50,264 bases of DNA from a virus. The notes beneath the pieces are model-generated. The model was not told where the DNA came from. It did not search any database and saw only the letters and a program-made list of their open reading frames with translations. The translations under genes were made by a program, and so were the position numbers. Location: IMG/VR virus record IMGVR_UViG_3300028376_000009, positions 1 through 50,264 of that record; one strand, 5' to 3'. Shown here piece after piece: positions 18,201-35,905 of this stretch. Position 1 is the stretch's first letter. Every line of letters starts with the position of its first letter.

Positions 18201-18814
18201 AACACGCCACTGAAAGCACTGGGGTTTGGACGATGGCGCGAAGCGCTGGTATTATTTGGTTTGGATCCTCAAACACCAGCTCAAGTAGCGGAGGTAGTAT
18301 GGGCTCATCGTCAGCAGGCTCAAGTACAGTAGGTAGTAGCACTGGTGGTAGTAGCGCGGGCGGTGGTAGTAGCACTGGTGGTAGTACTACACCACCGTCA
18401 GCAGGCTCAAGTAAAGATACGGCCGTTGTTCCAGCGCCATGGCTTGGAACTGACAAGTACACCGCCCTCTTTGTTGAGGAGCAGCCAGAGGTTATATTCA
18501 GTGATCATTTTGATGTCTACGTTGGAGGTAGGGAAACCCGTAAACGGTTGGACCGTAGGTTCTTTGCAGTGTGTGAACCTGGAACAATCAAAGTTGTGGG
18601 CGTTGTTCCAGACCAACCTGAAAGCGTTGGTGTTATGATTGATGCTGAGAGACAAGAGCTTGTCGTAAGAACACGACGTTGGTTCTCTAAAGTAAAGCGC
18701 GTATCAGGACGTATCAGCGGTACACGTCTTGGCTTTAAACATCTTCGATTCCCAACTAAATCACAGGCTGATTTCGAGGCTAATGAAACATGGATCAAGA
18801 GGGGTAATAGCTAA
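15209..18814 (+). CDS. Large structural protein with eight Cys-pair repeats
   Basis: 1201 residues. Between residues ~110 and ~775 there are eight copies of a helix (LAxxLxQ-like) followed by a cysteine, a short N/E-rich loop and a second cysteine often followed by proline. Cysteine pairs are near 130/141, 253/264, 326/337, 436/449, 576/588, 639/653, 703/715 and 756/773. Residues ~1021-1069 form a Ser/Gly linker. The C-terminal ~130 residues are basic and beta-rich. Location between tail and glycosyltransferase genes and the repeated architecture suggest an exposed tail fibre or adhesin. No known domain is recognised, so the function is inferred. Confidence 0.7.
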   Translation: MEPKNPSHRNEDCRTDDFFPEVCYPKNDTYWKRLTVCDEQGDFCEMDLSGLRRPNATPLKETEGNPGTKVGNDPVSVGCPAPYSGAVTVDIPEDQFVRFIADARDTVAIDEARQFVNNLANLFAQTQLNCYAENEAQTADCPAAPTNESLHTSADTSTTVAAGLFKVKLGSVGLAQGEEERLAVREDTSDVGDYIIQLNIDAPNFFKINGYVAGLAQYNTPVSETVAYADLHALDLEEANSTAQSRAFAGLDCVYGNEAVTLYCPNDTDGVAPVQTAGTPVATAPAHSFTYRLVDIEDGPVQDPDQTGLDSLTVRARDLAVTLLQCVWWSKSVSVSCPLLDVTTPTCTPGTGVCDLGGAEGDKNRPPDPVFIADTTENDVNYSPLQPSSTTVARGQYKTLLTFPQGTDPLIFPELSDNAAELTEKAVALAQALVQCRYENNAYSGAAECCPDGSTIPNLVNATVNLVNPGATVNMATDPPTVTCDTTQKTDYTMTDQSAEIAPPLGGFWEPFEEIKFPLNIDKGEIIRVVSNPILDLVSEELEHVEYMVNNGNPQALKVEMDQAALDSVCAASAICFWGNEALVAAHCDPTQPNNALRAQDYEDSTPSDLIPANTFINTTGKYQVQELAVTVALASRVCQPKLVGNIGVALPCATPTSDQALKVVYWPNASIEPTIAADTFLDVDVCAATELALAVAIATKLCAYTNNEVTSEDCPTGTTSQTPKITLFKGTIIDYTITADPTGTAQTLANASRICTAITGDSDNPFEEEVSCGLKLTGAYTQEAGAPNINSIEWSVTSGDVKHENSEDTAAAYSGGNTTSYDLYKPHFYASFAVDEAGFQIPNTTITVEQSATKTSTDFTILDTTGYLYIGSFVDFGPTVTNTTTGVTNGQIVVANAICAPDPYKYSLKQTQQFEGYPLTSESNNTKTVTFSALYVHDAILGGEPIASVPTPYIYAEGDSFHVNLEVDADQVPKSVTIEKTGSASLPANTTTNKYFKHATESTGVWTMARSAGIIWFGSSNTSSSSGGSMGSSSAGSSTVGSSTGGSSAGGGSSTGGSTTPPSAGSSKDTAVVPAPWLGTDKYTALFVEEQPEVIFSDHFDVYVGGRETRKRLDRRFFAVCEPGTIKVVGVVPDQPESVGVMIDAERQELVVRTRRWFSKVKRVSGRISGTRLGFKHLRFPTKSQADFEANETWIKRGNS

Positions 18815-19860
18815 TGTCATTAGGGTCATCAAAAAGTTCGTCATCAAGCGCGTCCCAAAGTAGCGCGTCCCAAAGTAGCGCTTCCCAAAGTAGCGCGTCC
18901 CAAAGTAGCGCTTCCCAAAGTAGCGCGCCCCAAAGTAGTGCGTACCAAAGTAGCGCGTCCCAAAGTAGCGCTTCCCAAAGTAGCGCTTCCTCCTCTGTAT
19001 GCAGTCCGGAGCATACAACGTACTGCGCGGTGTTTTCTGGTAACGCAGTGACTCTTACAGGTAGCTTGAGTTCGGGGCTTTTCACAGGAACCTGGACTGA
19101 CTCCGATGAGGTGACACATACCGCAGAGTTAGCTTGGGTTGGCTGGGCTTGGGGTTTCTCTTCTGGTGATGGCACGCACACTTCTACATATATAACCATG
19201 TACAGGTGCGATCCCACTATTAGTTATGGTTCTATAACAATAACATTAGGTGCATGTGCGACTACCAGCGATAGTAGTAGTAGCACGGCTGGTAGTAGCA
19301 CGGGTTCCGCATCCTCAAGCTCGGCCTGTGACTGCTCTAATTACGTGTTGGGGGCTGGCGATTTTGTTGGTGTGAATCGAGACTATCGCACGGGCTACGA
19401 CATAGGTTCCTCCGTTAGTAGTAGGGCTCCGGATGACACATACGCAACAGTATCAAATGGTTTTGATGTTTGTGACGTGGCAGTGATTGAATTCAAGATG
19501 ACTTGCGACAACGACACTAACCAAGACCCAACCCAACCCAAACCTTCCATGACGATCACACTTGACGAGTCGACATCAGGTCTACAATTAACATGGCAAG
19601 ACGACCTGCCACAGGATGGTGAGTATGTCGAGAGCAACCCTATTATTGGTGTGATAGATTTTGCTAGTGGTGTAATAGCCATAACAGGGCCCGTCGCACC
19701 AAGAGGAAGCGGCACCACAACAGTTACACTTAACTTTACACCGAACGCTAACTGTATCACACAGATCGACGTTTCCGGTAGCTGCTATACCACAGCCTAT
19801 AGTAATAGAGACCTGATATTGCGGCACTCAGATACCAACTTGTTTACTGTCGTGAACTAA
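18814..19860 (+). CDS. Serine-rich repeat surface protein (adhesin/tail fibre candidate)
   Basis: 348 residues. Starts in TAATG overlap with the previous gene. Residues 12-61 are ten SASQS-type pentapeptides; a second Ser/Thr/Gly-rich linker spans about residues 152-171. Between and after these are two beta-rich domains with paired cysteines (CSPEHTTYC, and CDCSNYVLG later). There is no predicted signal peptide. The layout, rigid beta domains on flexible serine linkers, fits a tail-associated adhesin. The serine runs could also be glycosylated, since sugar-transferase genes follow. Confidence 0.65.
   Translation: MSLGSSKSSSSSASQSSASQSSASQSSASQSSASQSSAPQSSAYQSSASQSSASQSSASSSVCSPEHTTYCAVFSGNAVTLTGSLSSGLFTGTWTDSDEVTHTAELAWVGWAWGFSSGDGTHTSTYITMYRCDPTISYGSITITLGACATTSDSSSSTAGSSTGSASSSSACDCSNYVLGAGDFVGVNRDYRTGYDIGSSVSSRAPDDTYATVSNGFDVCDVAVIEFKMTCDNDTNQDPTQPKPSMTITLDESTSGLQLTWQDDLPQDGEYVESNPIIGVIDFASGVIAITGPVAPRGSGTTTVTLNFTPNANCITQIDVSGSCYTTAYSNRDLILRHSDTNLFTVVN
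18847..18996 (+). repeat. Ten 15-bp tandem repeats coding SASQS
   Basis: Unit is AGC GCG TCC CAA AGT (alternating GCG/GCT), ten copies in frame, with single changes giving SAPQS and SAYQS and a final SASSS. Because the unit is 15 bases, gain or loss of copies keeps the frame and changes only linker length. Confidence 0.95.
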
Positions 19861-34634: not shown

Positions 34635-35072
34635 AGTATCTTTTTGTTCTTTGTAAATTTCGGGGGTGTACCAGGATTCGACTGCATGTTGAAGCTTTCC
34701 CTTGGCACGTAGGATTGAGCAGATCCGTATAAAGCTCGGTAACCATTATAAATGGCGAAGAAGAAAGCAACATCGTTGAGTTCTCAGCTTTTGCTCGTGC
34801 ACAAAATGCACCTGCACTTGCTGCGGCGTAAGCCCCTCAGCGTACAGGTCTCACGACTTGGCCAAAAATCCTGCAGCGTTCAAAGATGCAGGATGAGGTT
34901 CGAAACTACATGAACTCGGGAACATGCGAAAGACGGTAACACCGTGTTCCTTAAACAACCAGTTATCTGCTACTCAAGTCCGGCGTTTGTTGCGGACTTG
35001 AGTCTAAGACTTACAGCAAACTAAACGTGCTATAACAGGGGATTGAGAAGGCATGTAGGACGCGGGTTCGAT

Positions 35073-35849
35073 CAACGGTCGACCTTGCTGGTGACAGCAA
35101 GTGCAAAAGTGGGTGAATTGAAAGCATAGATTTTTCTATGTCTGGGAACCGTACTTGTGATGACGCAAGCGGCAATCAGCAGCCAAGCTTCGGGTACACC
35201 CGAAGAAGGTTCAGAGACTACTGGAGGGATATAGTTCCCTTAATTACCAGTTTTAGCGCCCACGAACTCAGATGTAATTTTCAGAAACTCTACGGTTTCT
35301 TCTTTGGAGTATTTATTCTTCATCCAATTGATAGCGCGTGACACAAACTCTACGTTTGTTTTCGTGTAACCTTTGGAGGGATTGATACGATCTAAAGAAG
35401 CATATTTGTAGAATCTTTCTGAACCAAGTTTATGACCTTCGGGAAGTATCAGCTGAATGCCAGAATATGGACAAGTTCTGTTCTGGCGTTCCCATACTTC
35501 TTCGAGGTCTTCCATTTTTAATTCAATGTTTTTTTGATTCTTACGTTTCGTAGACATTATTTTAAAGATGTACTTAAACTTGGATGACTCAACACGACGA
35601 TTTTTCGCGTGCTTTGAAATGTCATAATCACTTCGATTATCAATTATACGCTGCGTAGTCTCAGGACTACAACCATAGCAATGTAGCGCACAGTAGAACT
35701 TGTCTTTTCCAAGACGTAGTTTTCTGTTGTACTCTTTCTTTGGTTTGGAAAATTTGGTTCCACACGTATGACAGGTTAATTCGACTGAGTTCATGATATA
35801 GTCCAGTACCTTAGGAAACTAGGGTGGAGCTGTCAAGCTCTAACAACTG
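35073..35849 (+). mobile_element. Group I intron in the T-loop of tmRNA
   Basis: The 5' exon ends in U (TTCGAT) and the intron ends in G, as group I splicing requires. The exon end TCGAT pairs with GTCGA at 35078-35082 with the U-G pair at the splice site (P1). The conserved core is visible: Q-like AATCAGCAGCCAAGC (35174-35188), P6 hairpin CTTCGGG/CCCGAAG, R-like GTTCAGAGACTA (35209-35220), and S-like GATATAGTCC (35795-35804), whose TAGTC pairs with GACTA to form P7. The endonuclease gene fills the P8 loop. Length 777 bases. Confidence 0.88.
35240..35794 (-). CDS. Intron-encoded HNH homing endonuclease (antisense to the tmRNA)
   Basis: 184 residues on the minus strand, its start adjoining the S element and its end inside the P8 loop. 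N-terminal zinc knuckle (CHTCGTKF, and CALHCYGC); C-terminal HNH-type core CPYSGIQLIL with SLDRINPSKGYTKTNVEFVSR, where D, R, N form the active region. Such enzymes cut intronless tmRNA genes and so spread the intron. Being antisense, its mRNA cannot come from the tmRNA transcript, so it needs its own promoter. Codon use is AT-richer than its surroundings, as expected for a mobile gene. Confidence 0.82.
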   Translation of the reverse strand: MNSVELTCHTCGTKFSKPKKEYNRKLRLGKDKFYCALHCYGCSPETTQRIIDNRSDYDISKHAKNRRVESSKFKYIFKIMSTKRKNQKNIELKMEDLEEVWERQNRTCPYSGIQLILPEGHKLGSERFYKYASLDRINPSKGYTKTNVEFVSRAINWMKNKYSKEETVEFLKITSEFVGAKTGN

Positions 35850-35905
35850 TCCCGCCACCTCCACCATCTAACCCAGGACAAGTCGCCAGGCACTGTCCAC
35901 CCGAT

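Follow-up and report, generated by a model that had tools for sequence, protein, structure and literature searches.

We analysed the IMG/VR virus record IMGVR_UViG_3300028376_000009 over its full length of 50,264 bases (the window) and found a tmRNA gene interrupted in its T-loop by a 777-nt group I intron. The arrangement is real and does not arise by chance. Very probably, the intron is a mobile element of a phage lineage, is spliced out to give a 428-nt tmRNA, and bears in its P8 region, on the antisense strand, a gene for a homing endonuclease. The limits of the split gene (34662–35866) that had been read from the letters alone proved exact for both exons and the intron (Table 1). The record encodes a tail sheath and a terminase, in agreement with the earlier assignment to a phage. 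Elsewhere in the window, a tRNA-Gln (TTG) at 455–528 is directly followed by an HNH endonuclease gene (557–1228), and a protein encoded at 18814–19860 has long SQSSA repeats close to its start.

Table 1. Features of the intron-split tmRNA gene in the window
Feature	Position	Strand	Basis
tmRNA exon 1	34662–35072	+	RF00023 65.8 bits; ARAGORN on spliced sequence
Tag reading frame GEEESNIVEFSAFARAQNAPALAAA-stop, resume codon GGC	34754–34831	+	ARAGORN
Group I intron, 777 nt	35073–35849	+	RF00028 E 7.4e-9; covariation; splicing restores tmRNA
P1: UCGAU 35068–35072 with GUCGA 35078–35082	35068–35082	+	Sequence
P2 hairpin CUUGCU-GGUGAC-AGCAAG	35084–35101	+	Sequence
P3: GUGGGUG 35109–35115 with CGCCCAC 35257–35263	35109–35263	+	Covariation, helix 1
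P4: UUG 35118–35120 and CUG 35142–35144 with CAGCAG 35177–35182	35118–35182	+	Covariation, helix 2
21-nt hairpin insert AAAGCAUAGAUUUUUCUAUGU in P4 5' strand, between UUG and CUG	35121–35141	+	Fold, alignment, relatives
P5 and extension CCGUACUUGUGAUGACGCAAGCGG	35149–35172	+	Fold; helix 3
P6a CUUCGGGUACACCCGAAG	35188–35205	+	Helix 5, covariation in 7/7 pairs
R element / P7 5' strand GUUCAGAGACUA	35209–35220	+	Invariant P7, helix 6
P7.1/P7.2 (group IA-type element)	35221–35250	+	Helices 7 and 8
Probable homing-endonuclease gene, 184 aa	35240–35794	-	PHROG profiles; identity to crAss-like enzymes
P8 5' strand GAACUCAG, partner 35785–35792	35264–35271	+	Helix 9
P8 3' strand CUGAGUUC	35785–35792	+	Helix 9
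S element / P7 3' strand GAUAUAGUCC	35795–35804	+	Helix 6
P9 hairpin CCUUAGGAAACUAGGG	35809–35824	+	RF00028 alignment
tmRNA exon 2, TCCCGCCACCTCCACCA	35850–35866	+	ARAGORN on spliced sequence; acceptor pairing with 34662–34668

The first exon comprises the 5' acceptor strand, a D-like region, the tag reading frame, pseudoknots and the 5' half of the T-arm through TTCGAT, and the second supplies the end of the T-loop, the 3' strands of T-stem and acceptor, and an encoded CCA. Removal of the 777 nucleotides creates the junction GCGGG-TTCGATT-CCCGC, as had been predicted. The 7-bp acceptor stem pairs GGGGGUG with CACCUCC and includes the G3-U70 wobble. ARAGORN detects no tmRNA in the unspliced DNA; with 35073–35849 deleted it recovers a complete 428-nt tmRNA whose tag ends in APALAAA-stop, so that both the complete ends and the tag proposed earlier stand. 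The Rfam tmRNA model RF00023 matches with 65.8 bits (cut-off 47), its alignment failing at the T-loop intron. The gene is identified as a tmRNA by the acceptor stem and T-arm with G3-U70 that intron removal leaves, by a tag frame and by a model score over the cut-off. We detected no SmpB gene in the record. Exact copies of the uninterrupted 32-nt tmRNA 3' end GGACGCGGGTTCGATTCCCGCCACCTCCACCA are present in 23 IMG/VR contigs and show that an empty, intron-less site exists; ARAGORN finds a whole tmRNA in six of these contigs and no full tmRNA in the other 17. Scans of IMG/VR with the window's terminase and endonuclease gave no relatives, and hence no near sister phage that lacks the intron.

The intron is inserted at position 7 of the T-loop, after TTCGAT, and ends in G35849. 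Its -1 U forms the splice-site U-G pair in P1 (U35072-G35078), and its P3–P8 core contains the P7 pseudoknot; these features, with the terminal G, make it a group I intron. The boundary rules and the R and S elements named in the sequence-only reading are all in place. The P7.1/P7.2 element between P7 and P3 is of the IA type and places the intron broadly in subgroup IA. Of the two covariance models suggested at that stage as a check, the tmRNA model scored as given above, and the Intron_gpI model RF00028 matched with 41.5 bits (E 7.4e-9 for this stretch), below its curated cut-off of 50, which is a database criterion and not a structural one. Related phage cores score 59–103 with the same model, and the low score of the window may be explained by the P4 hairpin and the P8 insert.

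The core is supported by covariation. We aligned 12 related phage-type cores after deleting the P8 gene and the 21-nt P4 hairpin from that of the window. Across 44 core pairs, 95.9% of the cells are paired, and 28 pairs display double-sided changes. The covariation score is 0.534, compared to 0.163 in shuffles, with none of the 500 shuffles reaching it. When the helices are slid, pairing falls to 30–43%, a control somewhat biased in favour of the structure, which was drawn partly from these 12 sequences. P7 is invariant and therefore uninformative in this respect. A scan for promoters and terminators listed no site upstream of the tmRNA or the endonuclease gene, and its output was no richer than in shuffles.

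The chief doubt about the function of the intron comes from the 21-nt insert in P4, which is predicted to fold as a 7-bp hairpin and has no counterpart in the other aligned cores. As a side stem the hairpin, to which the sequence-only reading made no reference, may do no harm, but it may also impair splicing, and it makes splicing competence less certain. A search of IMG/VR for introns with such an insert returned 49 matches, all rejected: 48 have a normal P4 and matched because CTGG occurs a second time downstream, and the last one (L109) simply contains the motif TGAATTG twice.

The gene inside the intron bears out only in part the earlier idea of the intron's own homing gene: an endonuclease gene with HNH/EndoVII-like relatives is present, but it lies in the P8 loop on the strand opposite to the intron. 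Both of its ends overlap core helices. The encoded protein combines a zinc-finger-like N terminus (CxxC..CxxxC) with an LDRIxxxKGY..N endonuclease domain. Its PHROG matches (phrog_3322, 1.6e-17; phrog_1035 and phrog_3118, 1.9e-11 each) are annotated as endonuclease, EndoVII-like (1.9e-11) and HNH-like (1.9e-11). Pfam, including its HNH family, and NCBIfam gave no match at cut-off, and the protein has no LAGLIDADG domain. The catalytic block reads LDRI in the window enzyme and in those of the crAss-like phages cr128_1 and cr6_1, versus HHI in HNH relatives; cr4_1 and cr55_1 encode enzymes with this canonical HHI block and with the same zinc-finger-like N terminus. Where HNH enzymes usually have a histidine, LDRI has none, so the activity of the window enzyme is not assured. 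An AlphaFold model of the enzyme alone was unusable (pLDDT 40), a PDB sequence search returned nothing credible, and plasmids contained no relative.

The relatives of the enzyme are found next to or within tmRNA genes. The five closest full-length ones among annotated phage records are encoded by four crAss-like phages and by a gut phage scaffold. In cr128_1 and cr6_1, whose intron endonucleases are 35–39% identical to the window enzyme, the gene is antisense within a T-loop intron of a tmRNA. In cr56_1, cr113_1 and MT835588 it lies, again antisense, in the gap between the two parts of a permuted tmRNA. The T-arm there is intron-less, with an unusual loop, TATCGTAT; this arrangement may be an escaped or a pre-intron state. 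A 78-kb virus (L012, contig L072) has a sixth relative (33% identity) at a distance of 58 nt downstream from its intron-split tmRNA; the 292-nt tmRNA intron there has no endonuclease and the enzyme gene is freestanding. The likely target of the enzyme is the tmRNA T-arm, for which the tie of all these relatives to tmRNA genes is the best evidence. The arrangement looks like a mobile element specialised on tmRNA and recurs in unrelated phages. There is about an even chance that a phage mobile-element lineage has specialised on tmRNA, in which a T-arm-targeting endonuclease family, with or without group I introns, would move between the tmRNA genes of unrelated phages (crAss-like phages, the 78-kb virus and the window), using several T-loop subsites in ordinary and permuted tmRNAs, and would make ribosome rescue there dependent on ribozyme splicing.

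The arrangement is not peculiar to this phage: tmRNAs split in the T-loop are present in about a dozen further viral records, among them a 735-kb phage and crAss-like phages whose tmRNAs are permuted. A search of IMG/VR with a pattern that places a complementary guide after a T-loop gave 16 stretches. ARAGORN calls a tmRNA only after splicing in L002 (a 164-kb contig), L007 and L015 (275 and 152 kb), L016 (42 kb) and the 78-kb virus. The same holds for the permuted tmRNAs of cr4_1, cr55_1 and cr1_1 and for the 735-kb phage LR756501, which has a 33-aa tag and carries its own SmpB gene (E 1.4e-53). The tmRNAs of L003 (102 kb), L005/L071 (97 kb, permuted), cr128_1, cr6_1 and L028 were read by eye from acceptor pairing, tag and T-arm; on L003, L071, cr128_1, cr6_1 and L028 ARAGORN made no tmRNA call even after splicing. 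The 3' splice site assumed for cr6_1 and LR756501 would leave the intron with a terminal A instead of G. Intron endonuclease genes are antisense in all phage cases (the window, L003, L007, L071 and the crAss-like ones) and sense in three bacterial cases (L040, L042 and L043), a comparison of few cases that are not independent. A LAGLIDADG domain is present in the enzymes of L003, L007, L040 and L042. Among the at least 131 matches listed for the phage-type core motif at loci fetched from IMG/VR, a crude T-loop filter let through only two, which both seem spurious; in the matches listed, introns of this type thus sit in T-loops in a minority of cases.

Several observations were made alongside these searches. 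The T-loop-split tmRNAs of the Crassvirales phages cr6_1, cr4_1, cr55_1, cr1_1 and cr128_1 are unannotated, and several are circularly permuted into two pieces; their introns are group I with antisense endonucleases and apparently occupy different T-loop subsites. RAGATH-7-assoc, -9, -20 and -22 RNAs and a hatchet ribozyme lie near the loci of cr6_1, cr4_1, cr56_1 and cr55_1. Two viral contigs (L006 and L008) match the Rfam permuted-tmRNA family RF04321. Downstream of the tmRNA of L016 there is an endonuclease-like frame that is seemingly open only if UGA encodes Trp; this phage may use genetic code 4. L028, a Flavobacteriaceae MAG contig, has a phage-clade tmRNA intron with an antisense LAGLIDADG-like gene and may be a phage or prophage.

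In the course of events that we propose, a transcript starting at 34662 would read through the intron, which would fold (P1–P9 with P7.1/P7.2) and splice itself out by cutting after U35072 and before U35850. The joined exons would form the 428-nt tmRNA with T-arm, acceptor stem and G3-U70 intact. This RNA would be charged with alanine by the host and, assisted by the host's own SmpB, would tag the products of stalled ribosomes and rescue them. The product of the antisense P8-loop gene would act as a homing endonuclease, most likely cutting intron-less tmRNA genes at the conserved T-arm, and the intron would thereby be copied into such genes during mixed infections. The earlier suggestion that splicing is a switch of phage ribosome rescue is speculation, and we found nothing in its favour.

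The P4 hairpin raises the alternative of a dead or dying insert: a ribozyme disabled by the hairpin, a tmRNA that is never made, a loss that is tolerated, and persistence by homing only. The break in P4, absent from the other cores examined, and the RF00028 score below the cut-off both fit such a decay. However, the remaining helices of the core are preserved, pairing in P4 is still possible to either side of the hairpin, the boundary rules are intact, the exons fold to a complete tmRNA with an open tag frame, and the endonuclease frame is open as well. We consider decay unlikely. Slightly more weight, though still little, goes to the possibility that the 184-aa ORF is a passenger or a degenerate endonuclease and not the homing enzyme of this intron. 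The canonical HNH histidine is missing, and the family annotation comes from PHROG profiles, with no match at cut-off in Pfam or NCBIfam. Against this, the zinc-finger cysteines and the LDRI-KGY-N block are conserved, and the five closest full-length relatives, as well as that of the 78-kb virus, are tied to tmRNA genes in other phages.

The phage could also have captured a bacterial tmRNA that already held the known bacterial T-loop intron, an origin made conceivable by bacterial tmRNA introns at the same position and by several MAG loci with the same P1. The ancestry of the core makes this quite improbable. In a maximum-likelihood tree of 24 cores (197 usable columns, ten bacterial examples), in which only the starred branches are reliable, the window core groups with tmRNA introns of crAss-like and huge phages and with cyanophage psbA introns in a phage clade (98/98). 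The psbA introns are nearest to the window core, with weak support (87/76). Nine bacterial tmRNA introns form a separate clade (100/99), and the window core does not group with the ten sampled bacterial examples. The bacterial endonucleases found here, moreover, are sense LAGLIDADG genes in the P7.1 region, compared to the antisense HNH/EndoVII-like gene in P8 of the window. Because the phage and bacterial clades are separate, at least two intron lineages have arrived at this one T-loop position. Finally, tmRNA genes are frequent integration sites of phages, and the locus might be a fragment left by prophage insertion into a host ssrA, joined to an unrelated insert. The 17 of 23 contigs with the exact 32-nt 3' end in which ARAGORN finds no full tmRNA would agree with such a scar, yet in the window both tmRNA ends lie mid-contig, the spliced tmRNA is complete and no tyrosine integrase was found in the record, which leaves this origin highly implausible.

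The preferred reading, a functional tmRNA split by a mobile phage intron, joins a phage ribosome-rescue RNA, an intron of phage ancestry and a tmRNA-associated endonuclease family, a combination that we did not find in the open-access literature. It points to separate invasions of the T-loop by different intron lineages. Standard tools miss such phage tmRNAs, because ARAGORN finds none before splicing. This suggests that annotation has so far passed over many phage tmRNAs, those of gut crAss-like phages among them. The open-access full texts searched contain nothing on phage tmRNA introns or on crAss-like permuted tmRNAs; subscription papers lay outside the search, and we make no claim of priority.

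T-loop introns in bacterial ssrA, which the sequence-only reading had mentioned, are known: 883 intron-form sequences from 21 phyla have been described, all interrupted in the T-loop and most at position 7 (PMC11915505, doi 10.1093/nargab/lqaf019). That study reports 36 endonuclease genes among these tmRNAs; 23 of them, those in its founding set, had been identified through homology to LAGLIDADG enzymes and lie in the P7.1 region or after P9. RefSeq viruses were also searched, yet the text names no viral intron form (PMC11915505). The window resembles the bacterial form in its group I intron at position 7, the -1 U, the terminal G and the T-arm restored by splicing, and, as in some of the bacterial cases, an endonuclease gene is present. 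It differs in being carried by a phage and in having a core of the phage intron clade; in addition, the enzyme is HNH/EndoVII-like, antisense and in P8 instead of LAGLIDADG in P7.1 or after P9, and the intron is 777 nt long, in contrast to means of 293 and 414 nt in the two sets of that study (PMC11915505). The closest cores are those of the psbA introns of cyanophages S-PM2 (68% identity) and S-SRM01, which have the same P7.1/P7.2 type and an EndoVII-like gene nearby (F-CphI in S-PM2). Unlike the window intron, they split a protein gene, and their EndoVII-like gene is downstream, on the sense strand, and annotated as a gene of its own. The Crassvirales introns (cr128_1, cr6_1, cr4_1, cr55_1 and cr1_1) share with the window the intron clade, the antisense endonuclease and its zinc-finger-like N terminus, and in cr128_1 and cr6_1 the likeness extends over the whole enzyme. 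They differ in that the endonuclease gene follows P7 and is not in P8, several of the tmRNAs are permuted, and some of the introns occupy other subsites of the T-loop.
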